A stretch of DNA of 34,876 bases from a virus, in the IMG/VR virus record IMGVR_UViG_3300020027_000025, positions 1-34,876 of that record; one strand, 5' to 3'. Below, piece by piece: positions 1,522 to 33,113 of the stretch. Made by a program: the position numbers and the translations under genes. The notes beneath the pieces were generated by a model that saw only the letters and a program-made list of their open reading frames with translations, made no database searches and was not told the DNA's origin. The first letter of the stretch is position 1, and each line of letters starts with the position of its first letter.

Positions 1522-2295
1522 TTACTTGTTCTCGACGTACAGTTCTTTGTTCGACGTGTTCATGGTGTTGACGCCAATAACCTTGAACCACTGCTGAACA
1601 TTGTACGAGTTGAACGGGGTCAGTCCGGACACGTAGGTGCGCCGGATACCGGTGGCTCCGGCAGTGTTCTGACTGACCTGCACGGCGTTGGCGTCGGACG
1701 CTGTCACGATCGCGGAGCCAGAGCCGACCACGGCACCGGTGCACACCCGGATGGTGCACAGTGAGAACAGTCCGCCACCGGCCGACGCCGATAGCTGGAG
1801 TTGGTTGGTGATCATGACCCCGCCGGAGGGCGGAGCCACGAACGCAGTGCCGCACGCGGTGCCGCCGGTCAGGGTGTTGACGTAGCTCGTGCTCGTGGTG
1901 GATCCAGCGGTGGCCTGCGCGCTGGTCGCCACGGTGTCGTCCGGATAGCGCACCCATGCGGCACCGCTCCAGCGCTTGAGGGAGAGGTTGCTCAGGTCGA
2001 ATATGACCTGGCCGGTGTAGGGCACGGTCACGCTGGCTGTGGTCGCGACAACCGGGATCCCCCCGACCCGTCGCCATATGGCATTGAACCCGTCACGCAC
2101 GCGGAGCGCTTGACTGTCCGTCTCGTAGATCGTTTGACCGGGGTACGGCGAGGAGGGCAGGGTGGCCGTGGTGCACTCGATCACGGGGACCGTGTCGTCC
2201 AGCCGTTCCCAGTTCGCCTCGAACACTGCCCGGTCGGGGAACGGTTCGGTGCCGTCGGGCAACGTCAGTCCTAGGTGGAACGTGCTGCCGCTCAT
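1522..2295 (-). CDS. Minor tail protein, probable tail-tip or receptor-binding component
   Basis: The protein has 257 residues, rich in Thr, Ser, Gly and Val in beta-type patterns. The N-terminus (GLTLPDGTEPFPDRAVFEAN) resembles the opening of many actinophage minor tail proteins that describe a fibre attachment segment. A middle part (about 60-120) repeats short strands ending in aromatic residues (VRDGFNAIWRRVGG and LKRWSGAAWVRY), typical of small beta modules in tail fibres. The C-terminal half could be a jelly-roll tip. Its ATG overlaps the stop of the upstream gene (ATGA), and it is the last tail gene before the lysis-like genes. No enzyme motif is seen. The tail role is inferred from position and composition. 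Confidence 0.7.
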   Translation of the reverse strand: MSGSTFHLGLTLPDGTEPFPDRAVFEANWERLDDTVPVIECTTATLPSSPYPGQTIYETDSQALRVRDGFNAIWRRVGGIPVVATTASVTVPYTGQVIFDLSNLSLKRWSGAAWVRYPDDTVATSAQATAGSTTSTSYVNTLTGGTACGTAFVAPPSGGVMITNQLQLSASAGGGLFSLCTIRVCTGAVVGSGSAIVTASDANAVQVSQNTAGATGIRRTYVSGLTPFNSYNVQQWFKVIGVNTMNTSNKELYVENK

Positions 2296-2816
2296 CGCGA
2301 GTCCCTTTGCTTGATCGAGTGGAGTTCGTGTCGTAGTGCCTGCACGCGATCGACCGGTGTGCGTTGCACAGCTCGGGCAGTGTGGTGCACTTCTCGGGCC
2401 ACACGAACCAGCTCACGTTTCACCGTGAGAGCTTCGGGGTCCATGTGGTGGTTATCCACCACGGACTGGAGCTGGGAAGCGGCACGCCCTCGGGTGCTCA
2501 TCCGATGGCGCAACTTCACCTGAGCACACCGAGCGATGTGCGCGGCACGCACCTGTTCGAGGGTCACATTCTCGTCGTACAGCTGGGGTCCGACTGCCCA
2601 GTCCTCACGGGTGAGATACGGCTCTGCCAGCACGATATCCAGCAAAGTGGAGGTGTCGGAGGGATCGATGCCGTACTCCGCCGCGCGCCACTCCAAAGCG
2701 TCATGCGGGAATAAGTGTGACCCTTCCTCCACCGTGCCGTCATCGTGAGTGACCTGAGTGGACACTCGGAAACGGTCGTTGCCCTCGTCCTTAGTGGACA
2801 GAAACTCTCTCTTCAT
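2292..2816 (-). CDS. Hypothetical protein in tail-tip cluster
   Basis: The product is 174 residues and mostly helical and charged in its second half (about 85-174, rich in Arg, His, Glu, Val), so a coiled coil or helical bundle is likely. The first 80 residues are acidic with short strands. I do not recognise a family. The start chosen is the ATG at 2816, which overlaps the upstream stop as TAATG. An in-frame start at 2837 would lengthen it by seven residues but would overlap the upstream gene more. The gene lies between two minor tail genes, suggesting a tail-tip component or a chaperone for the neighbouring fibre. DNA here is visibly more AT-rich than the flanks. Confidence 0.7.
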   Translation of the reverse strand: MKREFLSTKDEGNDRFRVSTQVTHDDGTVEEGSHLFPHDALEWRAAEYGIDPSDTSTLLDIVLAEPYLTREDWAVGPQLYDENVTLEQVRAAHIARCAQVKLRHRMSTRGRAASQLQSVVDNHHMDPEALTVKRELVRVAREVHHTARAVQRTPVDRVQALRHELHSIKQRDSR

Positions 2817-5509: not shown

Positions 5510-5511
5510 GG

Positions 5512-6696
5512 CTACCTCCTCACCGGGACGACGAGTTCACCGGGGGTGCCGAGGTACTGAGCCATCAGGTGGTCCGGCTGGTCGCCGGCCACCGCGCCGC
5601 TCCCCGCCGCCGCCACGCCGATGAACGCGTCGAGCGCGACGGTGGCCGCCTTGCTGAGTCCGCCATTGATCACGTCGCCAGTGAAGGCCAGTGCCGAGCC
5701 GACCACGTAGCGGTTGCCGTCGCCGTCGTTGGCCGTGGCCCTGACGTAGCCTGTGCCGGCCGTTCCCGCCTCGGTCGCAGCCCGGACCACCTTGAGCGTC
5801 GTGGACGTCTGGGACTGCACGTACAACTCCAGCGTGCGGGCACCCCGGACCAGCGTGAGATCGGCGGTGACCCGCCCCGGCGCGGCGGCACTGGCCCACA
5901 GCACACGCACGACGACCTGCTCCAGCTCGTTGCGAAGCAGGGTCACCGACCGGGCGGTGCCGAGCGTGACGCCACCGGCCAGCACATCCCACGACTTGGC
6001 GTGCCACGCGCCGCCGGTGTAGGCGGCCACCTCCAGCACACCGCTAGCCGCGAGCGGACGCACGCGCACCAGGCCGTTGCTCAGCTCCCAGCCGCTGGCC
6101 GCTGGTGAGAAGTTCAGGCCTGAACGCTCCAGCGCGTCGCCGTCCAGGAACCGCACACGGCCGGCGAGGCAGGCCACGGTGGACGCGCCCCACCGCGGGT
6201 GCGTGGCGGGCACGTTCCGGTAGACCACCTGGGCCCCGTCCGCCCCAGTGCGGGTGATGACGCTGGGCACGGTGGCGTCGGACCAGTAGCCGTAGTGGCC
6301 GATGGGCGGCGCGTGCCAGCGCTCGCCGGTGACGGCGTGGCTGGTGTTGCGCGTGAGCGGCCCGGACAGACGGCTCTCCATGTCGGTCTCGAACTCGGTG
6401 CCGAGTCGGGTCAGATCAAGGGTCCAGGTGACGGTGGCCACCTGTTGGAAGTTCGAGTAGCCCGCTTTGACGTTGGCCACCCGGTAGTAGCCCGACAGGC
6501 GTGGCTTGTCCACGAAGGTGACGGGCACGAGCGCGCCGGTCATCCCCAGGAAGTCCTCACGCCGCCGTTCCAGTTCGATCAGGGTCAGGGGCGGGAGCGC
6601 CTCTTGCCCGGTGACGGTCACGCCGTCACCAGTCTGGTCGGCGCTCCAGTCCTCGCGAAGGACCAGGCGTCCCAGGGTGATGGTGCCGAAGCTCAT
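5512..6696 (-). CDS. Minor tail protein (distal tail-like)
   Basis: The 394-residue product directly follows the tape measure gene and overlaps it by ATGA, the normal position of the distal tail protein that caps the tube and attaches the hub. The first 130 residues (GTITLGRLVLREDW, later PRLSGYYRVANV and ATVTWTLDLTRLG) fit the beta-rich tube-adaptor part of such proteins. The rest is an extended beta-rich domain that could be a carbohydrate-binding or galectin-like module. There is no enzymatic signature. The assignment comes from gene order plus composition, so it is called minor tail rather than given a symbol. Confidence 0.78.
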   Translation of the reverse strand: MSFGTITLGRLVLREDWSADQTGDGVTVTGQEALPPLTLIELERRREDFLGMTGALVPVTFVDKPRLSGYYRVANVKAGYSNFQQVATVTWTLDLTRLGTEFETDMESRLSGPLTRNTSHAVTGERWHAPPIGHYGYWSDATVPSVITRTGADGAQVVYRNVPATHPRWGASTVACLAGRVRFLDGDALERSGLNFSPAASGWELSNGLVRVRPLAASGVLEVAAYTGGAWHAKSWDVLAGGVTLGTARSVTLLRNELEQVVVRVLWASAAAPGRVTADLTLVRGARTLELYVQSQTSTTLKVVRAATEAGTAGTGYVRATANDGDGNRYVVGSALAFTGDVINGGLSKAATVALDAFIGVAAAGSGAVAGDQPDHLMAQYLGTPGELVVPVRR

Positions 6697-8741
6697 CGCG
6701 CCGTGCTCCTTTCGACGTTGCGGATCTCGTCGCGCAGGAACTCCGCCGTGGTGCGGAGGTCGGTCTTGCTCATGGCGTTGAGGGATCCGGGGAACGTGAC
6801 GGTCAGGTTGTCGATGTTGATCGTGGTTCCGCCGGGGCCGGTGGCGTCCAGCGACGCGCCGTCACCGCCGAACCGTGGGGGCCGGGAGGTGAAGGCGGGC
6901 AGGGGGGTGTTCGCGATGGCGTCCGTCATGCCCACAATGCGGGGCTTGACCTCGGTCTCAAACCCCTTGTCCAGGCCGCCGGCCAGTCCGTCCATAATGG
7001 ACTTGCCATGGGGCATAAGAAGAACTGCGTCGACTTCGATCGGTCCTTTGTGGTCAGCGATCCAGTCACCGATGCCGGACACGAAGTCCTTGACGTTGTT
7101 CCACATTGCCTTGAGTCCATCCCACAGACCCTGAATGATCCGCTTGCCTGCGTCGAACAGGAGCCGGCCCACGTTTCCTATGCCGTCGAGAATGCGACCA
7201 GGCAGACCACGCACCCAGTTCACGAAATCGGTCAGCTTGCCGATCGCTCCGTCCTTGAGTCGGCCGAACCACCCGGACACTTTGCCGGGCAAGGCACCGA
7301 GCATCTCGAAAAAATCGCCGATATCCTTAATCCGCTTGCCAACCCAGTCAGCGATCTTGGTGACGATGTCGGACACGAATTTCCATATCGCGTTCCACAC
7401 CGAGGTGGTCACACTCTTGATCGTGTCCCAGTTCATGATGATCAAGACGACCAGGCCGACGACCAGCGCGATGATGATCAGCACCGGCGCGAACGCGAGC
7501 ACCCAGGACGCGGCCATGCTGATAGCTCCGGCGATCGACGCGGCGGCCATGGCGATCCAGCCGCCCACCACCTTGATCCCGGCACCAACCGCGGTCCAGG
7601 ACATCGTGTTCATCGCCATCACCAGCATGGAGATGTTGCCCACCACCGGCATCAGTTCCCCGCCGGCACCGAGCGCCCACGAACTGATCGAGCCCAGCGG
7701 GCCCTCCATGTTAGTGACCGACTGAACCCAGCCCTCGAACTTGCGCTTCACGGACTCGATGCCGTTCGCGGCGGTGTCGGCCGCCGCGGCGTTCATCTTG
7801 TCAGTGGCACCCTTGACGTTGGTGAGCGCCGACTCGGTGAGGTCCATCTTCGGGAGGATGGCGCGCAGGGTGTCTTCCCACTGGGTGCCGAACAGCGCGA
7901 CGCCGGCAGCGTTTTGCTGGACCGGGTCCTTCATGTTCTGGAGCGCGGTCAGTACCTGGATGAGCCCGTCGCTCGCGCTCTTGCCGCCGGCTGCCACCTT
8001 CTGGTTCATCTCGTCGGCGTTCAGGCCCATGTCCTCGTAGCCCTGGGCCACGGCGTTCGAAGTGTCGATGGCCCGGAGACCGAACTCCTTGAACACGTCG
8101 GCCATTACGTCGCCGTCGCGCGCGCCGGCCTGGAGCCCGGCGGACAGCACACCGAGCGCGGTGGCTCCGTCGAACCCCAGCTTGGCGAATTGGGGAGAGT
8201 ACTCGTTGATTGTTTCGAGGAGGTCGCCCGCGTTGTTGCCGCCGGACTGGAACGCACGGGTGATCTGATCGAACGCGGTGTCGACGTCGGGGGCCAGCTT
8301 GTTCTTGACCAGGTTGCCCGCGGCGCGAATGACCTCGCTCACGTCCTGGTCGTACACCGACGCGAGACCCATCGCGTCCTCGGTGGCGCTCTTAATGTTC
8401 TCTTTGGACGCGGTGTTCAGGTTGTACAGGTTCTGCCCCACACTGGCGATGGCCGCGTTGACGTCCGGGATGGACTCACCGAAGTTGTCGCGGTACACCT
8501 CGCCAGCGATCTTGCCCGCGTTCTGCGAGACCTCTTTCGTGAGGTTGAGCTGGGCCCCCAGTTTGGCCGTGCTCTTGCTGATGTCCAGGTTGTCGGTGAT
8601 CCCTTTGGAAATCGTCGCACCGATCGCGAGACCACCGGCCCATTTCATCATGGAGGAGCCGATGGACTCGCGACCTTCGGAGGTGCTGTCCTTGGTGAAC
8701 ACGTCGATGAACGCCGAACCCATCTTGAAACCCTCAGACAC
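6693..8741 (-). CDS. Tape measure protein
   Basis: This protein sets the tail length and is ejected with the DNA. It has 682 residues. The N-terminal part is Ala, Gly and Asn rich and helical, matching the TP901-type tape measure core with repeated A-x-x-A-x-G-x-x helices at about 100-330. A hydrophobic block with two or three membrane-type helices lies at about 385-440 (ASIAGAISMAASWVLAFAPV and a following segment). Repeated W-x-x-I/V helices (WNAIWKFVSDIV, WDGLKAMWNNVKDF) follow at about 445-560. From the usual 0.15 nm per residue, a tail of about 100 nm is expected. The GTG at 8741 has an AAAGGAG site 5 bases upstream and overlaps the end of the chaperone gene, as is usual. Confidence 0.95.
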   Translation of the reverse strand: MSEGFKMGSAFIDVFTKDSTSEGRESIGSSMMKWAGGLAIGATISKGITDNLDISKSTAKLGAQLNLTKEVSQNAGKIAGEVYRDNFGESIPDVNAAIASVGQNLYNLNTASKENIKSATEDAMGLASVYDQDVSEVIRAAGNLVKNKLAPDVDTAFDQITRAFQSGGNNAGDLLETINEYSPQFAKLGFDGATALGVLSAGLQAGARDGDVMADVFKEFGLRAIDTSNAVAQGYEDMGLNADEMNQKVAAGGKSASDGLIQVLTALQNMKDPVQQNAAGVALFGTQWEDTLRAILPKMDLTESALTNVKGATDKMNAAAADTAANGIESVKRKFEGWVQSVTNMEGPLGSISSWALGAGGELMPVVGNISMLVMAMNTMSWTAVGAGIKVVGGWIAMAAASIAGAISMAASWVLAFAPVLIIIALVVGLVVLIIMNWDTIKSVTTSVWNAIWKFVSDIVTKIADWVGKRIKDIGDFFEMLGALPGKVSGWFGRLKDGAIGKLTDFVNWVRGLPGRILDGIGNVGRLLFDAGKRIIQGLWDGLKAMWNNVKDFVSGIGDWIADHKGPIEVDAVLLMPHGKSIMDGLAGGLDKGFETEVKPRIVGMTDAIANTPLPAFTSRPPRFGGDGASLDATGPGGTTINIDNLTVTFPGSLNAMSKTDLRTTAEFLRDEIRNVERSTAR

Positions 8742-9389
8742 GGGGGCTCCTTTCGATGATGTCCGGGTGGACGCTTTCCACCTGTGACAGGGGAACTTCC
8801 TTGCGGTCCTTTGTGGACTGTCCAGTCCCTGACCTGTCCTGCTCCGCCGCTACTCGCGCCGCCATCACTCCGGCGTAGGCCGGCAACCGCAACGCGAACC
8901 GGAAGAACTTCGGGCCCGGCATCGACCAGGGGTCCTCGATCCTGTGGAACACCGAGAGATCACTCTCAATGTCCTCCAGGTGGTCGAGAACCCAGATCAC
9001 CTGCCGGACCCGCTGGAGTTTCCCTCGTCCTCCAGCGCCCCCATGACCAACTTCTGCGCGGCGGACATGATCGACTTGAACTGGTCCTGGGTCAAGTCGT
9101 CGTAGTCACACAGCGCGTCGAGACCGTCCACTCCCAACAGCTCCTCCAGGAGCGCGGCGGCGGCGTGGTCCTGCCCCTGCCGGCGGAGGTTGCGGAGGTA
9201 GCGAATGCCGATGACCGCGCGAGGCGACGCCGGCACCGTGTACTCCCGGCCGTCGATCTTGAACAGCACCACGCGGTCGGTGGCGGCCGACGCCGTGGAG
9301 GCGGGGAGTTCGATGACCTCCACACCGACGTCCACGGGGGACACCACGCGAACGGACGGCTTGCGCTTGCTTGTGGTGGGGCCAGCCAT
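8734..9389 (-). CDS. Tail assembly chaperone, long -1 frameshift product
   Basis: This is the long tail assembly chaperone, made when ribosomes slip back one base on GGGAAAC at 9024-9018. The zero frame reads GAG GGA AAC. After the slip it reads GGG AAA CTC and enters the second frame, giving the junction EDE-GKLQRVRQ-VIWVLDHLED. The second frame (to 8734) has no ATG near its beginning, only a GTG at 9000, which supports fusion rather than separate initiation. The fused C-terminal part is about 88 residues plus the junction. Such long forms bind the tape measure protein while the tube polymerises. Family knowledge from lambda gpG/gpGT and the position just before the tape measure support the call. 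Confidence 0.88.
8997..9389 (-). CDS. Tail assembly chaperone, short product
   Basis: This 130-residue protein is the zero-frame product that ends at the TGA at 8999-8997. The ATG at 9389 is chosen because it follows a GAGGAG site and lies just after the tail tube gene. A longer in-frame reading up to 9638 would overlap that gene. It contains the strand and helix pattern common to actinophage chaperones (about 40-55, VLFKIDGREYTVP; about 75-125, helical, ending in MGALEDEGN). It helps load tube subunits around the tape measure in the lambda gpG manner. The short form is expected to be in large excess over the frameshifted form. Confidence 0.88.
   Translation of the reverse strand: MAGPTTSKRKPSVRVVSPVDVGVEVIELPASTASAATDRVVLFKIDGREYTVPASPRAVIGIRYLRNLRRQGQDHAAAALLEELLGVDGLDALCDYDDLTQDQFKSIMSAAQKLVMGALEDEGNSSGSGR
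9018..9024 (-). promoter_or_regulatory. Programmed -1 ribosomal frameshift site GGGAAAC
   Basis: Read on the minus strand, the heptamer is G GGA AAC in the chaperone reading frame, a canonical X XXY YYZ slippery site. It lies 18 bases before the zero-frame stop. The second open frame overlaps exactly as a -1 shift needs. A possible downstream structure in the GC-rich next 40 bases was not folded. Confidence 0.9.
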
Positions 9390-9400
9390 GGTGAGACTCC

Positions 9401-9955
9401 TCAGTCTGCGTCGATGATGCGGAACGGCCGGATGCTGGGGCTGACGTAGAACCCCTTGATCGTGACCTTGAAAACGGTCTGGCCGTCCTTCTTGTACTGG
9501 GTTTCGGTGCCCTCCACGGAGAGCACCTTGCGCACGACTACCATGCGTCGGCCGGTGCCGAACCACCCGTGCACGAGCAGGGCGGAGTAGTTGGGCTGCG
9601 TCGCGGCGTCGGAGTCGACCGGCTCGAACGCGCGCCATCCGACACCGGTCGAGATGGTGCCGCCGTTGAGCGCGTACTTGAGGTTGTCCAGGGACGGCTC
9701 CGCCATGTTCGTTTCCATGGTGATCTCGCGGAGAGTGGGGCGCGTGCCCGGCACGTCGATGAGCTGGTCGACCTCCAGGTCCTTGAACGTAGTCTTGATC
9801 ACCAGCTTGAGGCCGTCCGTGGTGCCGCCGACGTCGCCCCAGGCGGACGCTTGGGGGGTGTCGTTGACCGCGGTCTCCAGCGGTTCGGCCGCGCCGAACA
9901 GTCCCGTGTAGATAGTCGCCGGCCCCTGAGTCAGGTCGGTCACAGTAACTGACAT
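9401..9955 (-). CDS. Major tail (tube) protein
   Basis: This 184-residue protein probably forms the tail tube. It begins with GPATIYTGLFGAAEPLETAVNDTPQ, a typical actinophage tube start. It has a conserved-looking middle (DGLKLVIKTTFKDLEVDQLIDVPGTRPTLREITMETNMAEPSLDNLKYAL), shown here only as residues about 48-96, and a beta-strand-rich C-terminus ending VSPSIRPFRIIDAD. The size and position, between the tail terminator and the chaperone pair, are as expected. The ATG at 9955 follows AAGGAG with 8 bases of spacing. High expression is expected for this gene, but no dedicated promoter was seen. Confidence 0.9.
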   Translation of the reverse strand: MSVTVTDLTQGPATIYTGLFGAAEPLETAVNDTPQASAWGDVGGTTDGLKLVIKTTFKDLEVDQLIDVPGTRPTLREITMETNMAEPSLDNLKYALNGGTISTGVGWRAFEPVDSDAATQPNYSALLVHGWFGTGRRMVVVRKVLSVEGTETQYKKDGQTVFKVTIKGFYVSPSIRPFRIIDAD

Positions 9956-9970
9956 GGTGGTTACTCCTTG

Positions 9971-10126
9971 TTAGCTGTTGTCGTCGCCCGTGGCCGAACG
10001 CGACTGGTTGCTCCGACGTGCTTCGGGAAGATCGGCGATCAAGCCCTGCCGATACAAGTCCGTGAGCTCCTGGTCCCCGACTTCAATCACCCGATCGGGC
10101 TGCATCGTCGTGACTACCTTGTGCAT
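9971..10126 (-). CDS. Small protein between tail terminator and tail tube genes
   Basis: This is a 51-residue open frame, MHKVVTTMQPDRVIEVGDQE at its start, ending GDDNS. It begins with a short beta-hairpin-like pattern followed by LTDLYRQGLI, similar in outline to small phage proteins of the form V-x-V-x-D-x-E-x-x-x-L-x-x-x-G. I cannot assign a function. The ATG at 10126 is preferred because a perfect GGAGGT (10138-10133) lies 6 bases upstream. An in-frame ATG at 10132 overlaps the preceding stop but directly abuts that site. It sits where some phages carry a small neck or tube-associated protein. Confidence 0.7.
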   Translation of the reverse strand: MHKVVTTMQPDRVIEVGDQELTDLYRQGLIADLPEARRSNQSRSATGDDNS

Positions 10127-19375: not shown

Positions 19376-19944
19376 CACGCGCCCCCGTTCCTGATCTTGT
19401 CAGCGGCGGCCGCAGCGCGGGCCTGAGCTTCCCGAACCATCTCCTGGAGCTCCATGTCCTGCTGCGTGGTCTCGACCACGTCCACATGCATCTTGACCGG
19501 CGCGTCGACACCGAGCAGTTTGCGGCGTGACTCGCTGATCTTGATCAGGCGGTCGATGGCACCGAGGATCTTCCGGTCGTCCACGATCACGTGGGTGACC
19601 GGAGTGCCGTCCGGCGCGATGGCGATCACCGGCGTGCCAGGGTTGTCGAGCACGTACATGCACGCCTGCTGATACCCGTCGAGCCGGTCCAGCTCGAACT
19701 GGCGGACCTGGTCGATCAGCGGGTCTTCCCGGAGCTTGATCTCCTCCCGGAGGAGGTCGTGGACCTTGGTCCGGGAGCACTCCATGTCGTCGGCGATCTG
19801 CCGGATGGTGCGCCCGACCAGGCGGAGTTCGTAGGCGCGTGCCCGCTCAGCGGAGCGCTGGGCATCGGAGTCACCCTTGGCCCGGTGGGTGTGCGGACCG
19901 GTGCGGAGCACGAGCTGGTCCCGTCGCGTGGACATGTCCGTCAC
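19375..19944 (-). CDS. terS: Terminase small subunit
   Basis: The 189-residue protein fits the small terminase subunit, which recognises viral DNA and feeds it to the large subunit. It has a helix-turn-helix at about 36-66 (ELRLVGRTIRQIADDMECSR and following), a central helical oligomerisation region (FELDRLDGYQQACMYVL at about 83-99), and a second helical unit with DDRKILGAIDRLIKISESRR at about 121-140 before an acidic tail. The start is a GTG at 19944 overlapping the RusA stop by GTGA, or an ATG at 19935. A GGACATGTCC palindrome covers that ATG. The gene is 2 kb from terL, which is unusual. Confidence 0.8.
   Translation of the reverse strand: MTDMSTRRDQLVLRTGPHTHRAKGDSDAQRSAERARAYELRLVGRTIRQIADDMECSRTKVHDLLREEIKLREDPLIDQVRQFELDRLDGYQQACMYVLDNPGTPVIAIAPDGTPVTHVIVDDRKILGAIDRLIKISESRRKLLGVDAPVKMHVDVVETTQQDMELQEMVREAQARAAAAADKIRNGGA
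19930..19939. promoter_or_regulatory. GGACATGTCC palindrome over terS start
   Basis: This perfect 10-base palindrome contains the TGTCC word in both directions and covers the ATG at 19935. It may be chance in coding DNA, but it uses the same word as the promoter boxes elsewhere in the window. Confidence 0.35.
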
Positions 19945-20567
19945 ACTACGTCATTCGAGGCCACGGGGGGTAGCGACGGGCCGCGGTAGATGATCTGAAA
20001 CTGGTTGTGGTCGACCACCGGCACGTCGGTCACTGGCTCAATGTGGATCATGGCCCCGGTGTCCTCGCCGACCTCGGCACGCCGCTTGTGCGCGTGCACG
20101 GTGATCACCTGGGAGTCGTCGGCCCAGACGCCGGCCATGCCGATCGCGTCGAGCGTGGACCGGATCAGCTTGTCCAGGTCGGGGCGCTCGACCATCGGCT
20201 TGGTTGCCTTGCGCTGCGACTGGGGCCGGGGCATGACGAACACGAGCTTGACGACCACGGGGCCCAAGAGCGGCCAACCGGGGGGCGTACCGGTGGCTGT
20301 CGCGACCACTCCGCGATGTGCTCGCGCCTTGAACGCCGCCTTGACCGCGTCGCGCCACGGCCCGACCTTCTTGCTCATCTCGACCATGCGAATCTTGCCG
20401 CCGGGCCTCCCCGCCCCGAACGCCCGCTTGCTGCCCTGCGGACCCGGCACGCCGCCGGCCCACACCGACAGGGCCTCCCCGCCCGCCGGCTCGCAACCGG
20501 GGGGCACCGTCAGTCGATGAGCCTCGCTCCAGTCCACGAATCGGTTATTGATCTTGTTGTCAGCCAT
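19941..20567 (-). CDS. RusA-like Holliday junction resolvase
   Basis: The 208-residue product resolves four-way DNA junctions, and RusA enzymes in phages act in recombination and in clearing branched DNA before packaging. The family core is at about 131-160: RPDLDKLIRSTLDAIGMAGV followed by WADDSQVITV, with the acidic residues of the RusA catalytic set (Asp in R-P-D-L-D-K and W-A-D-D). The ATG at 20567 is chosen because AGGAG lies 6 bases upstream. A longer in-frame reading to 20699 runs through repeated TGTCCG words and would encode low-complexity sequence, so it is rejected. The gene is followed directly by terS. Confidence 0.88.
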   Translation of the reverse strand: MADNKINNRFVDWSEAHRLTVPPGCEPAGGEALSVWAGGVPGPQGSKRAFGAGRPGGKIRMVEMSKKVGPWRDAVKAAFKARAHRGVVATATGTPPGWPLLGPVVVKLVFVMPRPQSQRKATKPMVERPDLDKLIRSTLDAIGMAGVWADDSQVITVHAHKRRAEVGEDTGAMIHIEPVTDVPVVDHNQFQIIYRGPSLPPVASNDVV

Positions 20568-20597
20568 CGCGTGCTCCTGTTTGAGTGGTGCTGAACC

Positions 20598-20760
20598 TGT
20601 CCTGTCCGCTGTCCTGTCCGTTGTCCGCTCTCCCTTAGGGTCGAGCGGACAAGCGGACAGAGGGTGTCCGTCGCTTGTCCGTTGATCTCCAACGGACATC
20701 CTTTGTGCAGGTCACCACTGGTGTGTGGTTGTCCTTGTCCGTTGCGTGTCCGTGTCCGTT
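20598..20760. repeat. TGTCC(G) repeat array (putative origin/operator cluster)
   Basis: Eleven copies of TGTCC read on the plus strand start at 20598, 20603, 20610, 20615, 20622, 20665, 20676, 20730, 20736, 20747 and 20753. Three read on the minus strand (CGGACA at 20646, 20654 and 20693). The left part is a tandem 12-mer (TGTCCTGTCCG plus C or T at 20598 and 20610). TGTCCGTT and AACGGACA at 20676-20683 and 20691-20698 form a palindrome with a 7-base centre. A leftward promoter with CTGTCC, 17 bases, TAAGGG is possible. Confidence 0.8.
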
Positions 20761-20770
20761 GGAGATCAAC
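20681..20770. repeat. 18-bp perfect inverted repeat
   Basis: GTTGATCTCCAACGGACA (20681-20698) is the exact reverse complement of 20753-20770. The 54-base centre holds TGTCC words. The arms could form a long stem in RNA after the primase-helicase stop, or a cruciform in DNA at an origin. Confidence 0.8.
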
Positions 20771-20773
20771 ATC

Positions 20774-23287
20774 TCATGATCCACAAAACCGCTTGTTATG
20801 GATCTCTCTCGCCTTGTCCGTGAGGGTTGATTTCACACATACGTTCCATGCCTCCCGGAACGTCAACGGACGGTCCCGGTCGGCCTCTTTACGCTTGCTC
20901 GACCACGCGCGTAGCTGACTCACTCGGTCCTCGATCTCCGCAGTCTCCGCCGCGTCCTTGCGAGTGGTCGGCGAGGACATGGGGTCGAACGACAGGTAAG
21001 CCGACTTGACCCCTGGCACCGGCACGAGCGCCATCGACCGGGACCCGAGCAGCTCCCCGTCCTTGGACTTGCGGTGCTCCAAGGTGCGGGGGTTGTCCGG
21101 GCCGCGGTCCTCGTTGTTCTCGCCGTTCAGCTTGATCACCCAGGAGGCGTCGGCGTTGTCGTCCAGCACCGAGGAGCCCCGCGCCCGGAGCCCCTGGTGT
21201 CCCGTGTGGTGCAGCACGAGCACGGCGATGTCCAGGATGTCCCGGATCGAGAACAGCCGCTCCAGCGCCGCCGCCACCTTGGTCGCCTCGTTCTCCTCCA
21301 GCCCCGGCGCGCAGCGGCTGAACGTGTCGACCACGAGGAGCTTGGCCCCCCGATCCTTGATCGTTTTGACCAGCTCGCTCATGGCCTCGTTTTTCATCAC
21401 GTTGACCGGGCCGCCATGGATGGTCAGCGCGCCCTTGGTTCGCTGGGCCACCTCGTGCCCGGCACCCCAAGCGGCCAGCCGCCGGTCGAACGATCCGACC
21501 CCCTCTGCCGCGACGTACACGACCGGCAGGGCTTCCGGCACCGCGTGCCCGGCCCACGGCGTGCCGGTGGCGACGCACGCCGCCCAGTCCAGCGCGAGGA
21601 ACGTCTTGTACGTCCCGAATTTGCCGGCCATGATGGTCATCGTCCGGTGGTCCAGCACCCCCTCGATCAGCGGGCGGGGAGGCGGGATCAGCGACAGGTC
21701 GGTCCAGTCGAACCACGGGCCCGGCTCGACCTCCTCGTTCGGGTCGTCGGGGCGGGGAGTGGCGCTGGTCGAGCTGCCTGGCGTGTCGAACGGGTCGGCC
21801 GGCTCGCTCGTCTCCGGTCGCACCTCCAGGTCCGGGCCACGTCCGTTCGGGTGCGCGTCGTGCGGCCGGTCGTAGGGCACCGGGTTCGTGCAGTGGAACA
21901 GACCAGGCTTGTCGATCGGGTGCTCGCTGGCCGGCGTGCCGTCGAACCGACACAACCACTCCTCGCCCTCATGGCAGTAGCACTGCCCGGTAGCACCCTC
22001 GCGTGGATCAGGAGTGGACCCGTTGTGGATGGCGAGCAGCTCCAGGGGCACCTGGGCCTCCTCCGCCAGCGTGGCCACCGTCTCCCTGAGCATCGCCTGG
22101 AAATCGGCCAGCTCCTCCTGGCCCCCGTCGAACGTGCCGTGCGCGGCCAGGCCCAGCGCGGTCACCGCGGCCGACTCCCGCTCGTGCTTGCTGCCCTCGT
22201 GATCCCGGTAGGCGACGTAGGTCAGCCGGTTCAGGGTGCGCGGCGCGTCCAGGAGGTAGTCCGGCGGGTTGTCCGTCCAGATGTGCAGCGGCGCGTGCCC
22301 ATCCTCGCTGTCGTAGCGCGTGCAGCCGAGGTCGTGCGCCGTGGCGCTCTTGGGTGACGCGTGCCCGCCCGGTGCCGTCCAGGTCGGGCAGCTACAGGTG
22401 TCGAGCAGGCCGGTCGCCGACCAGTCGTCCGCCTCCAGCAGCACCGCCCACGGCGTGTTGGCCGACCAGTCGTCCACCGGGTCCAGCTCCAGGTCTCCCG
22501 ACCGGCGGGCTTCCCACCGCTCCGCCCGGATGCGTTCGCGCTCGGCACGCGCCTCGGCCGCCATGAACACGCGGTCGAGCAGGAACTGGGGTGCCGGCTC
22601 CGGCGCGCCGACGAGACGGTATGGGCCTTCCTTGCGCACCGAGGGCGGCACGAGGACCTGCCGCCCGGACCAGGCCGCTCCCCAGCCGGTCTCGTCCTTG
22701 AGCGTGCCGACACCCGAGGGCAGGGTCACGCCGTCCGGCAACGTGAACCACCAATGGCCGCCGCCGTGGTGGATCCATTCCTCGGTGCCGTCCTCGCCGG
22801 TGCGGGACACGCCAGGGGACTCGACGGTGTAGCCCCTGCCGTACTGGTTGTCGCCGGACTCCTGGGTCCAGGTGGCCAGGAAGGCGTCCCGCTCGGCAGG
22901 CGTGTCGACGTCCACCACGAGCATGCGGGACGCGCCCGGCTCCACGCCGATGTTCGGGATGAGGTCGCCGTCCGGCCCGGCAAGCCGCTTGAGCAGCGCC
23001 GTGACCTTGCCAGCGTCGTCCTCGGTCAGCGCGTGGTTGACGCCGCACGCGTGGCGGAGCTGGGAGGCACGAGGGTCTCCGGCGGCCAGCGCGGCGTCCT
23101 GGACCTCGCGGTCGGCCTTGCGTCGGGCCGCCGCGGTGAGCGGGCACATCGGCTTCTTGGTGCCGGGCTCGTTCAGCACGATGGCGTAGCCCTGCCGCAA
23201 CGCTGCCCGGATCAGCCCGGCCAGGGCCTCCAGCTCGCCGGGTCTGACCGCCCCGAAGATGGCGGTGAAGGTGTCATGGCTGAACAC
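20774..23287 (-). CDS. Primase-polymerase / RecA-like helicase
   Basis: The 837-residue protein is the likely replicative primase-helicase. The N-terminal third resembles bifunctional primase-polymerase domains: AIVLNEPGTKKP near 35-46, then LVVDVDTPAERD near 122-133 with the catalytic Asp pair, and HHGGGHWWFTLPDG near 172. The C-terminal part is a RecA-like ATPase with Walker A AGKFGTYKT near 553-561, Walker B KLLVVDT near 645-651, and LVLHHTGH as the sensor near 690. The middle (about 300-480) is Cys and His rich (CSCP, CYCHEGEEWLC, FHC) and may bind zinc. The GTG at 23287 has GGGAG upstream. It overlaps the HNH gene and is followed by the TGTCCG array. Confidence 0.88.
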   Translation of the reverse strand: MFSHDTFTAIFGAVRPGELEALAGLIRAALRQGYAIVLNEPGTKKPMCPLTAAARRKADREVQDAALAAGDPRASQLRHACGVNHALTEDDAGKVTALLKRLAGPDGDLIPNIGVEPGASRMLVVDVDTPAERDAFLATWTQESGDNQYGRGYTVESPGVSRTGEDGTEEWIHHGGGHWWFTLPDGVTLPSGVGTLKDETGWGAAWSGRQVLVPPSVRKEGPYRLVGAPEPAPQFLLDRVFMAAEARAERERIRAERWEARRSGDLELDPVDDWSANTPWAVLLEADDWSATGLLDTCSCPTWTAPGGHASPKSATAHDLGCTRYDSEDGHAPLHIWTDNPPDYLLDAPRTLNRLTYVAYRDHEGSKHERESAAVTALGLAAHGTFDGGQEELADFQAMLRETVATLAEEAQVPLELLAIHNGSTPDPREGATGQCYCHEGEEWLCRFDGTPASEHPIDKPGLFHCTNPVPYDRPHDAHPNGRGPDLEVRPETSEPADPFDTPGSSTSATPRPDDPNEEVEPGPWFDWTDLSLIPPPRPLIEGVLDHRTMTIMAGKFGTYKTFLALDWAACVATGTPWAGHAVPEALPVVYVAAEGVGSFDRRLAAWGAGHEVAQRTKGALTIHGGPVNVMKNEAMSELVKTIKDRGAKLLVVDTFSRCAPGLEENEATKVAAALERLFSIRDILDIAVLVLHHTGHQGLRARGSSVLDDNADASWVIKLNGENNEDRGPDNPRTLEHRKSKDGELLGSRSMALVPVPGVKSAYLSFDPMSSPTTRKDAAETAEIEDRVSQLRAWSSKRKEADRDRPLTFREAWNVCVKSTLTDKAREIHNKRFCGS

Positions 23288-23603
23288 GGTGAGGGCTCCC
23301 AGGAGTGGTGTTGTGCGCGCAGTGCTGACCTCGGTGCCCGTGGAGGCTGTTGCAGTGGAGGCACGCCGGCTGGATGTTGCCCCGACGATACGTGCCGCCG
23401 TCCGCTCCGGGCACGATCCGGTCCACCGTGATCGTGTCCATGTCCAGGGTGCCGAGGCACTTCGGCGAGCAGCGCAACCAGCACTGGACCGTGACGCCGT
23501 CGCCGTAAGTGTCGATCAGCCACTGCTTGCGCACGCGGCGGGACGAGGCACTCCCGCGCTGGTTGGTGTTCGAGGGACCACGCGGGTGGTTGGGCCCGCT
23601 CAT
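23274..23603 (-). CDS. HNH-type endonuclease-like protein
   Basis: The 109-residue protein has a compact HNH-like core: CWLRCSPKC near 41-49, DTITVDRIVPGADGG at about 56-70, NIQPACLHCN at about 76-85. These are the usual zinc-binding Cys residues and the terminal Asn. The position normally held by the first catalytic His (D-H) reads D-R here, a variant seen in some phage relatives, so activity needs testing. The ATG at 23603 overlaps the stop of the 34-residue membrane peptide, and its own end overlaps the primase-helicase start by 14 bases. A role in DNA processing or packaging is an inference. Confidence 0.8.
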   Translation of the reverse strand: MSGPNHPRGPSNTNQRGSASSRRVRKQWLIDTYGDGVTVQCWLRCSPKCLGTLDMDTITVDRIVPGADGGTYRRGNIQPACLHCNSLHGHRGQHCAHNTTPGSPHRVQP

Positions 23604-23704
23604 GCCATCACTAGGAGCAGCACGACTACGATAGGAAGTCCTACTGCAAATAGTCCAATGTAGAGCATGAACATGACCTCTGCCACAAACTCTCGGAAAC
23701 TCAT
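23600..23704 (-). CDS. 34-residue membrane peptide
   Basis: This short frame begins with the ATG at 23704, which overlaps the polymerase stop as ATGA, and its TGA overlaps the HNH ATG as ATGA. The product starts MSFREFVAEVMFMLYIGLFA and continues with a long hydrophobic run to the end, giving one membrane-spanning helix at about residues 10-32. The DNA is clearly more AT-rich than its neighbours. Two exact overlaps with genes on both sides strongly argue it is translated. The role is unknown; small membrane peptides in phages often alter host membrane proteins. Confidence 0.72.
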   Translation of the reverse strand: MSFREFVAEVMFMLYIGLFAVGLPIVVVLLLVMA

Positions 23705-25596
23705 ACCTTTGCCCACCTCTGTCCCATGTCGGCCCGGTCCGTGCGCAGGATGGGCACGCGCTTTGCCAAGCGGCACAAGCGTTCCGGGGGTTGTTGCATG
23801 ATCTTCTCTATGTCGTGCGCGGCGTCGGTGGACGCGACCACCTCGTCGTGCATGAGGAGGTAGAGCGCGTCGGACAGTCCGGCCTCGTCCACACTGATCA
23901 CCGTTTCGGCGAGCACGTCGTAGGCCGATCCCTGCACGAAAAAGTTGACTCCTTTGTGGACTGCCGGGGAGGGCGGACCAATCGTGCCGTCGTCCTGCTT
24001 GAACCCCTTGCCCATCGGGATGGGCAGGATGCGCCCGGACATGGTGAACACCAGCCGGTAGTGTCGGGCGATGTTGCGTAGCTTGCCCTCCCGGCCTGCC
24101 GACGCCGGCCGGACGAGGTCAGCCGTGCGGGGCAGCGTGTCAAAGATCAACGTGCGCAACTCCTCCGCCCGGTCCAGGCTGATCCCTAAGTCCAGCGCCA
24201 ACTTGGCGAGACCCTCGCCGTAGAGCTGTGCGAGCAGTGTCGTCTTGGCCACCGGCCGCGGCTCGCCGGTGGCGGACGCGATGCCCTGATAGAAGTCGAC
24301 CGTGCCGGCCTCGTAGTCCAGGACCATGTCCCAGTCCCCGGCGATGTTGGCGATCAGCACCGGCTCGATCTGGGCCCAGTCCAACGACGTCAGTACGTCG
24401 CCCTCGTCGGCGAGCACGATGCCACGCGCGCCCTCCGGGAACTGATGGACCGGCACGCCGGAGTAGGACATGCGCCCGGTTATCGCGGCCAGGATGTTCG
24501 CCGCCGGGTAGATCCGATTGTCCTCTCCGGACTGATCCACCACCTTGGCCAGATAGTCCTGATCGATTTTCGTGATGCGCTTGGCCTTCACGAACGTCGC
24601 GGCGATCGGGTGGGTGAGCCGCTCCAGGTGATCGGCCACGGTGGACGGCTTCTTGTTCTTGCCGTCCTTGCCGCCCGCGGTTTGGGGGTAGTCCTTCGGG
24701 AGCGCGTCGGCCTTGGTCAGCACCTTGATCAGGTCGTTGGCGTTGCCGGGGCGAATGCCGGCCTTGTCCAAGTCCTCCTCCGCCTGCCGGAGCTCCACCT
24801 CGTTCATCGCCCGGTATCGGTCCAGGAACTCCAGGTCGGCCCGGAGGCCCTTGACCGCGCGCCGGAGCAGGATGCGGTTGAGCCGCTGTTCCCGCTCGAC
24901 CAGCGCCCACGCCTCGTCGCCGGTGACACCGTTCTCGGTGAAGGGGTGGCCGGAGGTGAGGCGCTCGTAGGCGGCGCGCCGCACGTGCGGCAGGATGAGT
25001 GCGGTCATGATCGCGTCGGACGCGGCACCCACGAGGTAGACGAACCGGTCCAGGTCGAACTGGTAGTAGCCCTGCTCCTTGGTCAGGCCCACGATCTTGA
25101 ACGCGGCGGCCAGGTGGTCGTCAATCGGCGTGCCGAGGTAGCGGTTGCCGGTGTTGGCCAGGGTCTTGCGGGTGCGCTCATCGGGCTCCGCCATGCGCGC
25201 GTGGATCAAGGTGTCCTCCACCTTGTACAGATCATCCAGCGTGATCAGTCCGTTGCGAGACAGGTTGGGCACGTCGAACGCGGAGTTGTGAAAGATCAAC
25301 TTGGGGGTGGTGGTGATCAGGAACCGGGCGGCCTCGTACTGTCGGCGGTCACGCGGGTCGAGCACCACCGCGGCGTCGCCGGAGGAGAACCCCAGGCACT
25401 TGAGGCGGGCGGAGTGTCGGCCCAGGCCGAACGATTCGATATCGCACGAGAGCGCCCGCTCCGCCCATTGCGACCGGGCGGCGTCGACTGCTCGGCCGCC
25501 GGCCAGGCACGGCACGTTGCGCCAGCCTCGGGTGCCGTGCGCGTCGTTGCGGAACGACTCGACGGCGGGGAGGACAGGTGGATCGGAGAACAGCAC
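23701..25596 (-). CDS. DNA polymerase I (family A) with 3'-5' exonuclease
   Basis: The 631-residue protein copies phage DNA. The exonuclease domain shows CDIESFG at 51-57 (Asp52, Glu54), IFHNSAFDVPNL at 101-112, and a later DAIMTALI. The polymerase domain shows motif A SLDWAQIE at 404-411 (Asp406), the finger motif RPVAKTTLLAQLYGEG at 447-462 with Lys451 and Tyr459, and motif C MHDEVVAS at 582-589 (His583, Asp584, Glu585). The start is the GTG at 25596, supported by AAAGG 7 bases upstream. It lies between an HTH gene (with a stem-loop in between) and the membrane peptide, in the leftward replication operon. Confidence 0.93.
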   Translation of the reverse strand: MLFSDPPVLPAVESFRNDAHGTRGWRNVPCLAGGRAVDAARSQWAERALSCDIESFGLGRHSARLKCLGFSSGDAAVVLDPRDRRQYEAARFLITTTPKLIFHNSAFDVPNLSRNGLITLDDLYKVEDTLIHARMAEPDERTRKTLANTGNRYLGTPIDDHLAAAFKIVGLTKEQGYYQFDLDRFVYLVGAASDAIMTALILPHVRRAAYERLTSGHPFTENGVTGDEAWALVEREQRLNRILLRRAVKGLRADLEFLDRYRAMNEVELRQAEEDLDKAGIRPGNANDLIKVLTKADALPKDYPQTAGGKDGKNKKPSTVADHLERLTHPIAATFVKAKRITKIDQDYLAKVVDQSGEDNRIYPAANILAAITGRMSYSGVPVHQFPEGARGIVLADEGDVLTSLDWAQIEPVLIANIAGDWDMVLDYEAGTVDFYQGIASATGEPRPVAKTTLLAQLYGEGLAKLALDLGISLDRAEELRTLIFDTLPRTADLVRPASAGREGKLRNIARHYRLVFTMSGRILPIPMGKGFKQDDGTIGPPSPAVHKGVNFFVQGSAYDVLAETVISVDEAGLSDALYLLMHDEVVASTDAAHDIEKIMQQPPERLCRLAKRVPILRTDRADMGQRWAKV

Positions 25597-25914: not shown

Positions 25915-25943
25915 ACCATACCCGCTCACCTGGATCATGTCCA
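25915..25943 (-). promoter_or_regulatory. Leftward promoter of replication arm
   Basis: On the minus strand TGGACA (25943-25938) and TATGGT (25920-25915) are 17 bases apart. The -35 box is itself a copy of the TGTCC word read in reverse. The predicted start near 25908 gives a leader of about 45 bases before the HTH gene. Confidence 0.7.
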
Positions 25944-25946
25944 GCA

Positions 25947-25975
25947 TTGACACACTTTGTCCCAGTGTGTAGTGT
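25947..25975 (+). promoter_or_regulatory. Rightward promoter of helicase/nuclease arm
   Basis: TTGACA (25947-25952) is perfect and TAGTGT (25970-25975) follows after 17 bases. A TGTCC word lies in the spacer at 25958. The leader to the ATG at 26022 is about 40 bases and contains repeated GAGAA acting as ribosome site. Confidence 0.78.
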
Positions 25976-26021
25976 GGCTCTCACAACCAGGTCAACCAGG
26001 CAGAGAAGAGAAGAGAAGATC

Positions 26022-26243
26022 ATGGACGGGACACCTCGACCCCCGGAGCCGGAGCCCGGCACGGTGGTCGGCTTCACCAAGCAGTTCCGACCGGACGGGA
26101 CGGGATACGCCTACGTCGCGATCCGGGTCAAGGGACGCGGCTGGTTCGTGACGGATGGTGTGCAGCGCGAGTGGGACGAGGTCGTGGAATTCGCGGACGG
26201 TGCCCAGCTCTGGTTCACCCGGACGTGGGAGCGGCTCGCATGA
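26022..26243 (+). CDS. Hypothetical small protein, first gene of rightward arm
   Basis: The 73-residue product (start MDGTPRPPEPEPGTVVGFTK) has a Pro-rich first 12 residues and then a beta-barrel-like pattern of short strands (GTGYAYVAIRVKGRGWFVTD, VVEFADGAQLWFTRTWERLA). Similar short proteins are common at the start of early operons in actinophages, but I cannot name a function. The ATG at 26022 has an AGAAGAGAAGA ribosome site. It overlaps the next gene by ATGA, so it is the first member of a coupled operon. Confidence 0.78.
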   Translation: MDGTPRPPEPEPGTVVGFTKQFRPDGTGYAYVAIRVKGRGWFVTDGVQREWDEVVEFADGAQLWFTRTWERLA

Positions 26244-28442: not shown

Positions 28443-29565
28443 GATGTTCGAGTCCATTGAGGACTCCACCGAAGTAGAGCGGGACCGGTGGGGCAGGTAC
28501 CTGCTCAAGAACCCGGTGTCCGGTGTGAAGCAATCCTTTACGCGGGCGACCACGTTCGCCAAGTCCATTTCGGACACGTTCACGCTTTCCCAGTGGGCGC
28601 AACGGATGGTGGCCAAGGGGCTCACGGTCCGACCCGACCTCGTGTCCTTGGCCTACCCGCTCGACGTCAAGGCGGACCGGGCCGCACTGAACAAGATCGT
28701 GGAGGACGCCAAGGCGGCGGCCGGCGGCAAGGTGGCCGCCAACAAGGGCACCGCACGCCACACGTTCACTCAGCGGATCGATGAGGATCCCGACGTCGAT
28801 ATCGAGAAGCTGGTCCCCCCGTACGCACTGGACGACGTGCGGGCCTACCGCTCCGCACTCGAACAGGGTGGTATCCGGGTGGTGCCGGAGCTGATCGAGC
28901 GCATCACCGCGGTGCCGGACTACGAGGTGGCCGGCACTCTGGACCGGGGCCTGGACTTGTCGGAGTGCCGGTTCGACCTGGGCCCGGAGGTCAACCTGTC
29001 GGACGGGCACCTGGTGATTGGCGACCTCAAGACCGGGCGGGATCTCCAGTACGGCTGGAACGAGATCAGTATCCAGCTCGCCCTCTACGCCATGGGCGTG
29101 AAGGCGTGCGGGACCTGGAACCCCAAGACCAAGATGTGGGAGAGCCCTCTCCCGATCCGGCAGGACTTCGCGCTGGTCATGCACCTGCCGGTGGGCAGCA
29201 AGAAGTGCACGATTTACAAGGTCGAGCTGGAGCCGGCCCGGCGCGCGATGGAGCTGTGCCGGGACGTCCGGCGTTGGCGCAAGTACCGCGTGTTGGCGGA
29301 GCCGCTGGCCATCGCGGAGGCGGAGTCCGTGACCACCGGCCGACCGTTCGGGAAGCTGCCTGACGACCGTGAGCAGTTGGCCGCGCTCCTGGACCGGCCG
29401 GTGCGCGTGCAAGGCCCGACGTGGCTGGAGCGGTTCGAGTCGGCAGCGTCGCGCGGTGAGCTGTCCGCCCTGTTCCACGAGGCGGTGGCGGCCGGCGTCT
29501 GGTCCGACGTGCTTGCTCAGGCGGGCGGGGAACGGCTGATCCAGCTTGAGGAGAAAGCAGGATAG
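28435..29565 (+). CDS. RecB/Cas4-like PD-(D/E)XK exonuclease
   Basis: The 376-residue product shows the RecB-type nuclease motif order: NKGTARHTF with His near 103-111, AGTLDRGL with Asp near 164-171, IGDLKTGR with the D-x-K pair near 196-203, and the QLALYA (Q-x-x-x-Y) motif near 214-219. It probably degrades or trims DNA ends during recombination or replication. The start is set at the GTG at 28435, which overlaps the upstream gene and lies after GGAAGGG, although the ATG at 28444 is a close alternative. The C-terminal part after 300 is helical. No Cas1 or Cas2 is near, so a CRISPR role is not implied. Confidence 0.88.
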   Translation: MSEMFESIEDSTEVERDRWGRYLLKNPVSGVKQSFTRATTFAKSISDTFTLSQWAQRMVAKGLTVRPDLVSLAYPLDVKADRAALNKIVEDAKAAAGGKVAANKGTARHTFTQRIDEDPDVDIEKLVPPYALDDVRAYRSALEQGGIRVVPELIERITAVPDYEVAGTLDRGLDLSECRFDLGPEVNLSDGHLVIGDLKTGRDLQYGWNEISIQLALYAMGVKACGTWNPKTKMWESPLPIRQDFALVMHLPVGSKKCTIYKVELEPARRAMELCRDVRRWRKYRVLAEPLAIAEAESVTTGRPFGKLPDDREQLAALLDRPVRVQGPTWLERFESAASRGELSALFHEAVAAGVWSDVLAQAGGERLIQLEEKAG

Positions 29566-32577: not shown

Positions 32578-32606
32578 TTGACATGGTTTGTCCAGGGGCG
32601 TAGCGT
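32578..32606 (+). promoter_or_regulatory. Promoter for small gene 32614, leaderless type
   Basis: A perfect TTGACA (32578-32583), a 17-base spacer and TAGCGT (32601-32606) precede the ATG at 32614 by 8 bases, so the transcript should begin at or near the start codon. TGTCC words begin at 32568 and 32589, with TGACA at 32579, spaced 11 and 10 bp. Confidence 0.78.
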
Positions 32607-32613
32607 CGAGCCC

Positions 32614-32820
32614 ATGACCACACGAACCCACTGCGAGCAGCTCACCGATCACCTGGCCCACCCGGTCACGTTCGGCCGCAACCAGCTGCAGCTCTACCGG
32701 TGCCCCGGTCGGTTCACCCCGTCCGCGCACCGGCCGCCGGGTCCGAAGCTCAAGCACGCCATGGATTCGGACCCGTTCGCCGGGGTCGACTCCGACGCTG
32801 CTCCGTCCATCTGGGACTGA
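32614..32820 (+). CDS. Small protein with own leaderless promoter
   Basis: The 68-residue product (MTTRTHCEQLTDHLAHPVTF at the start) is unrecognised. It has one Cys near 7 and another near 30, a His-rich first third, a Pro and Arg containing middle, and an acidic end. No ribosome site precedes the ATG, fitting a leaderless message. It resembles the other two isolated small genes (17331, 17586) in promoter layout and in starting ATGAC. A strong stem-loop lies 85 bases after the stop. Confidence 0.68.
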   Translation: MTTRTHCEQLTDHLAHPVTFGRNQLQLYRCPGRFTPSAHRPPGPKLKHAMDSDPFAGVDSDAAPSIWD

Positions 32821-32876
32821 CAAGTATGTGCCCGCCGTTCGGTGGCCAGGTCGGGGAGATCCTGGGAGCACTCGAA

Positions 32877-33113
32877 ATGAATCTGGCTGACCACGCTCTG
32901 GCCGCGGCCCCGCCCTTTCCGGGGCGGGGCCGGTTCACCCCGATGACTTACACCCACGAGGAGCGCGGCGCGGCGGCCGGCGACCTCGCCAACACCATTC
33001 GCCAGACGGCGTTCCTGCTCACCGCTGAGGAGCGGGCACGGTTCGCCGTCGAGCTGCTCACCCCGCACAGCACCGACACCGCGCACGCCGCGGGATATGG
33101 AGAACCGGCATGA
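32877..33113 (+). CDS. Hypothetical small protein
   Basis: The 78-residue reading begins with the ATG at 32877, which has GGGAG about 10 bases upstream, and ends with a TGA overlapping the MazG-like ATG as ATGA. The probable folded part is TYTHEERGAAAGDLANTIRQ and the following helix LTAEERARFAVELL at about 45-58. A start at 32943 would exclude a stem-loop that lies in the first part (32905-32932), and an ATG at 32826 is a further option. So the start is uncertain. No family is recognised. Confidence 0.6.
   Translation: MNLADHALAAAPPFPGRGRFTPMTYTHEERGAAAGDLANTIRQTAFLLTAEERARFAVELLTPHSTDTAHAAGYGEPA
32905..32932 (+). terminator. Strong stem-loop, possible terminator of 32614 gene
   Basis: The arms CGGCCCCGCCC (32905-32915) and GGGCGGGGCCG (32922-32932) form a perfect 11-bp stem with a 6-base loop. 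It could end the 32614 transcript, but the following bases are not U rich, and the stem may lie inside the coding part of the next gene. Confidence 0.5.

Follow-up and report, generated by a model that had tools for sequence, protein, structure and literature searches.

The window, by which we mean the whole virus record of 34,876 bp that was analysed, encodes a primase-helicase in which a Prim-Pol domain and an AAA_25 (RepA-like) helicase domain are followed by a C-terminal region, and, across a short gap behind it, a RusA-like Holliday junction resolvase (Table 1). A family A DNA polymerase is encoded nearby, and the window's other replication genes include those for a DEAD-type helicase and an exonuclease. 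An HNH endonuclease gene (23274-23603, minus strand) shares 14 bp with the start of the primase-helicase gene. The minus-strand replication genes are separated from the plus-strand helicase and exonuclease genes by a divergent gap (25920-26154), which contains three copies of TGTCC and is likely a promoter region.

The gap between the primase-helicase and RusA genes holds a dense array of the word TGTCC, most copies of which are extended to TGTCCG; one extra TGTCCG lies at 20815, within the end of the primase-helicase gene. Local dinucleotide shuffles contained 1.4 copies of TGTCC on average and never more than 6, against 14 in 160 bp observed, and the richest 163-bp stretch of shuffled whole windows held 5. 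All five copies of TGTCCGTT found in the window fall within the array. The array is confirmed as real and is not a chance clustering. The sequence-only reading had described 14 copies in about 160 bases in both directions, tandem 12-mers, a palindrome, 18-bp inverted arms and a 206-base gap between the two genes; the copy number stands far above the shuffles, the repeats are all present where it had placed them, and the length of the gap is exact.

As single-stranded DNA the gap is predicted to fold with an energy of -48.7 kcal/mol (z = -7.7) into two stem-loops. The first has an 18-bp stem and a 54-nt loop, and the second carries CCCTAAGGG near its tip.

Table 1. Positions of the genes, repeats and structural elements at the locus
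Feature	Position	Strand	Remarks
RusA-like Holliday junction resolvase gene	19941..20567	-	probable ATG; start inferred from ATGGCTGACAACAAGATC, alike in relatives
Gap, proposed origin region	20568..20773		206 bp, from primase-helicase stop to RusA start
Tandem 12-mers	20597-20608 / 20609-20620		
TGTCC array, proposed iterons	20598..20757	both	14 TGTCC, of which 11 are TGTCCG
Stem-loop 2 of the gap	20615..20659		2 forward words, CCCTTAGGG core, 2 inverted words
CCCTTAGGG palindrome core	20632..20640		common to relatives with other words
TGTCCGTT...AACGGACA palindrome	20676-20698		
Left arm of exact 18-bp inverted repeat	20681..20698		54 nt between arms
TGACCTGC element	20707..20714	-	in loop of 18-bp inverted repeat; common to relatives with other words
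Right arm of exact 18-bp inverted repeat	20753..20770		18/18 matched
Primase-helicase gene	20774..23287	-	Prim-Pol at residues 29-234, AAA_25/RepA-like helicase at 519-699, plus C-terminal region; proposed initiator
Family A DNA polymerase gene	23701..25596	-	likely extender of primers

Arrays behind the primase genes of relatives

A DNA-level search of phage records returned no copy of the window's array. The nearest primase relatives (L004-L006), which are about 50% identical over the protein, have no TGTCC array; the corresponding position holds copies of GATTCC instead, arrayed in both directions around CCCTTAGGG or CCCTATAGGG. From viral contigs and actinobacterial genomes, 137 loci in 110 lineages (<80% identity) were collected by protein homology only, and each locus was scanned for clusters of any 6-mer; two genome-contig scans account for 4 loci in total. 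Plasmid records gave helicase matches only, all of them in Proteobacteria.

Arrays directly after the stop codon of the Prim-Pol/AAA_25 helicase gene were found in about half of the 110 actinobacterial lineages (~50). A single 6-mer occurs at least seven times within a fixed 300 bp after the primase/helicase stop in 41 of 106 lineages, compared with 13 of 1,835 background windows, which were the other windows of the same loci (p ~1e-44). Such recurrence at one place, with different words, excludes chance. The words vary by lineage (TGTCCG, GATTCC, TGACAT, CCGAAC, TGGGAA and others), and 42 distinct 6-mers were counted among 52 arrays. Because some of these are shifted or related versions of one word (such as CGGCCC, GGCCCC and ATCGGC), the number of independent words is lower; distinct 6-mers were counted because single-linkage grouping chained unrelated words. 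With this diversity of words, the recurrence is not the inheritance of one sequence. Looked for at the same place in relatives, as the sequence-only reading had envisaged, the array is conserved in position and architecture but not in its exact sequence.

Across lineages, it is the end of the primase/helicase gene that constantly adjoins the array, and some of the relatives' arrays extend into its coding end; the gene downstream varies (RusA, HNH endonuclease and others). HNH genes lie downstream of the array in L010 to L012, for example. The position rule is also valid for shorter helicase proteins in mycobacterial genomes, and in L011, L094 and L095 an array lies behind the gene though the part fused to Prim-Pol there has no AAA_25 match and, in L094, is DUF3987-like. 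An AT-rich stretch lies between the array words of L011. No such array is present in over half of the lineages, Mycobacterium cluster B phages and corynephage BFK20 among them, and it is therefore not essential to all such primases.

In gene direction, the usual layout of the relatives' arrays is a run of words, a GC-rich palindrome with a T/A centre, and inverted words. When the array words were masked, CCCTTA (16 of 53 arrays vs 19 of 585 control windows, p=7e-10), CCCTATA (8/53 vs 1/585, p=1e-8) and CTGACCTG(C) (12/53 vs 13/585, p=7e-8) were enriched, these being the best of ~2,000 to 10,000 k-mers tested per length. Two word-independent elements thus occur across lineages, a CCCTTAGGG-type palindrome and CTGACCTG(C), and the window holds the palindrome together with TGACCTGC. 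The shared core rests on k-mer enrichment; an automatic hairpin search between word pairs often chose the wrong pair.

Probable reading of the words by the adjacent protein

Word similarity increases with the similarity of the adjacent proteins (Mantel P=5e-4), as expected if the adjacent protein reads the word. On these sequence comparisons we favor the adjacent initiator as the probable reader of the array words, and we hypothesize that its C-terminal region would make the contact. Co-variation tests do not single out that region over the helicase domain: the partial correlation with the word was 0.087 (P 0.015) for the C-terminal region versus 0.203 for the helicase part, and a nearest-neighbour test favored the C-terminal region in 15 of 24 pairs (p 0.09-0.15). 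For the window protein the model of the C-terminal region has low confidence (pTM 0.29). A C-terminal winged helix is predicted in eight relatives (L199-L221) with a pLDDT of 80, and resembles winged-helix regulators with weak Foldseek E-values (best 0.008); L094 has a sub-threshold match to a SelB winged helix. The C-terminus of the window protein is unlike that of the winged-helix relatives in sequence.

Members of one winged-helix subfamily (L200, L204-L206, L209-L211, L221) use closely related words (TGTCCACC, TGTCCGCC, TCTCCACC, GTCCCA, GTCTCA), from which a residue-to-base code may be readable. An apparent recognition-helix code in L199-L221 pairs FHR with TGTCC and FYR with GTCYCA, in a set of 8 proteins with an ambiguous word alignment. 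The helicase ORF of L204 is cut short (..STGASKADL*), with the remaining winged-helix sequence (..SFHRSLNGLVEAGILVNHGSDARPFY..) next in the DNA, followed by a TGTCCG array; the gene may be broken, the stop recoded or the sequence in error.

A candidate replication origin and its alternatives

A replication origin best accounts for the combination of an initiator-type gene just ahead of the array, an iteron layout, hairpins, turnover of the word and a core that stays constant. We estimate a probability of about 0.7 that the array is the origin of this phage, or the core of it, with the adjacent primase-helicase as initiator. The gene context, comprising Prim-Pol, a RepA-like helicase, polymerase A and RusA, is consistent with this proposal. 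Dense short repeats adjoin the putative initiator gene, as in iteron origins; a RepA-type (AAA_25) helicase occurs with iterons and hairpins, as at the RSF1010 oriV; and Prim-Pol and helicase are combined in one protein with the candidate origin directly downstream, as in the pRN1 type. No AT-rich unwinding element is prominent in the window, the lowest 60-bp GC content in the array being 0.45, which is not the window minimum. The GC skew of the window, a check suggested in the sequence-only reading, has no turn and gives no origin signal, and is uninformative here.

From the arrangement of these parts we infer how binding, opening and priming might proceed. Several copies of the primase-helicase, probably via the C-terminal region, would bind the TGTCCG words that directly follow the gene for this protein, and the RepA-like helicase domain would then open the DNA. 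Opening would expose the TGACCTGC element and the GC-rich hairpins that carry the CCCTTAGGG core; at or near these the Prim-Pol domain could start primers, and the phage's own family A polymerase would extend them. Relatives have exchanged the recognition word repeatedly without a change of place or layout, and initiator and origin appear to change together.

The sequence-only reading had proposed an iteron-type origin or an operator array. The origin part gains from the recurrence of the same layout at the same place, in about 50 lineages, beside a replication-initiator-like gene; the operator part fares less well. As an operator, the array would be bound by a repressor or by the primase, regulating how RusA and the genes downstream of it are transcribed, and would not be an origin. 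The RusA start does follow immediately downstream of the array, and autoregulation is common among iteron origins. However, what stays fixed in relatives is the end of the primase/helicase gene and not the downstream gene, and some arrays run into the primase coding end. Nor did the same word prove to be a feature of promoters, as had been suggested: outside the array 15 of 137 TGTCC copies are intergenic, which is no enrichment when 10.9% of the window is intergenic, and a search for promoters of the sigma-70-like type found none in the region. We consider a purely regulatory role unlikely.

Less probable still is a partition (parS-like) or packaging site, at which the words would bind a ParB-like or a terminase protein. 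A precedent is the cluster A mycobacteriophage Miko, in which five parS direct repeats immediately follow repA. Against this, no ParA/ParB-like match was found among the window proteins scanned, a set that leaves out some small ORFs, the terminase genes sit elsewhere in the window, and arrays follow Prim-Pol/AAA_25 genes across diverse lineages.

We give equally little credence to an origin read by the host DnaA, which would take TGTCC as a variant of the actinobacterial DnaA box, TTGTCCACA. The agreement of TTGTCCGTT with the box at 6 of 9 positions, and the use of TGTCCACC by some relatives (L200), are in line with such a role. Yet the array contains no exact or one-mismatch copy of this box and only 2 copies within two mismatches; moreover, the corresponding arrays of most relatives are built from unrelated words (GATTCC, CCGAAC, TGACAT). 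Least probable is a neutral or structural repeat, produced by slippage or as a hairpin that merely ends transcription or stabilises mRNA: the gap does have strong hairpins and a terminator-like site at 20676-20698, but that site is on the plus strand, opposite the minus-strand genes for primase and RusA, and slippage would not put inverted words around a shared core.

If the array is an origin, the relatives may extend it to a widespread actinobacterial class whose members all lie behind the gene of a primase-helicase initiator. Each lineage would have its own short word, substituted around an unchanging core made up of a CCCTTAGGG-type hairpin and a CTGACCTGC element, possibly where Prim-Pol starts. 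We advance this generalization tentatively, at slightly less than even odds. If it is true, there would be dozens of naturally orthogonal initiator/origin pairs, and co-resident phages or prophages would be kept from firing each other's origins.

Precedents and reach

A search of the open literature found no description of this array arrangement, and one may exist elsewhere; the kind of origin is known, and the variant is apparently undescribed. By analogy, the nearest precedent in place and protein design would be pRN1, that in parts RSF1010 and P4, and that in word turnover the geminivirus iterons. In the crenarchaeal plasmid pRN1, the origin has been located within 166 bp directly behind ORF904, a Prim-Pol/helicase/winged-helix gene, so that, as in the window, Prim-Pol and helicase are in one protein and the candidate origin is directly behind its gene (PMC4234260). 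The pRN1 stem-loop has a 21-nt stem and a 58-nt loop, compared with 18 and 54 in the window, and its loop-region sequence is poorly conserved while the structure is kept (PMC4234260). The pRN1 C-terminal winged helix has a predicted counterpart in the eight relatives mentioned above, the window's C-terminus being modelled with a pTM of 0.29. The two differ in their helicase, which is of the SF3 type in pRN1 and of the AAA_25 (RepA-like) type in the window, and in that pRN1 lacks iterons, where the window has a 6-bp word densely repeated in both directions.

The oriV of RSF1010/IncQ plasmids combines RepC iterons, RepA helicase, RepB' primase and ssi hairpins (PMC4234260, PMC4538821). Likened by the description of its parts, it shares with the window a RepA-type helicase, an AEP-type primase, iterons and hairpins, but divides among three separate proteins a system in which the window has primase and helicase in one. 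The alpha protein of satellite phage P4 unites primase, helicase and origin binding in one protein acting on an iterated origin (PMC4234260), as we propose for the window, where binding is conjectural; its primase is of the Toprim type and its helicase is different (PMC4234260), and the likeness is one of description, not sequence. Geminivirus iterons are words of 5-6 bases beside a stem-loop that differ between close relatives and are recognised by the cognate Rep, although these are single-stranded DNA viruses with rolling-circle replication, a nicking Rep and unrelated proteins (PMC12548392). The origins of extrachromosomal cluster A mycobacteriophages are a different system. In the accessible part of a survey of actinobacterial integrating conjugative elements, Prim-Pol genes are among the likely replication modules and no such arrays are described.

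Few actinobacterial phage or prophage origins have been mapped so far. The rule of looking 300 bp behind a Prim-Pol/AAA_25 gene yields candidate origins for roughly one in two of the lineages studied, some of them on mycobacterial chromosomes, and with them a natural collection of candidate origins and matching proteins from dozens of related viruses and prophages. Arrays that keep their layout but change their word offer a ready-made series for how the DNA-reading part of an initiator and its origin change together, and might provide sets of compatible replicons for mycobacterial genetics.

Corynephage BFK20 has a similarly ordered replication module, and its gp43 is RepA-like with a demonstrated primase-polymerase domain (PMC4538821), but there is no iteron array behind gp43. 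The 472-bp gap at that place (L233:7598-8069; record 32597-33068) contains a perfect 19-bp hairpin with CCCTTA, and could be that phage's origin. Thirteen copies of AGGCTG are clustered in or near the BFK20 gp39 gene (L233:3801-4275; record ~28800-29270), far from the primase.
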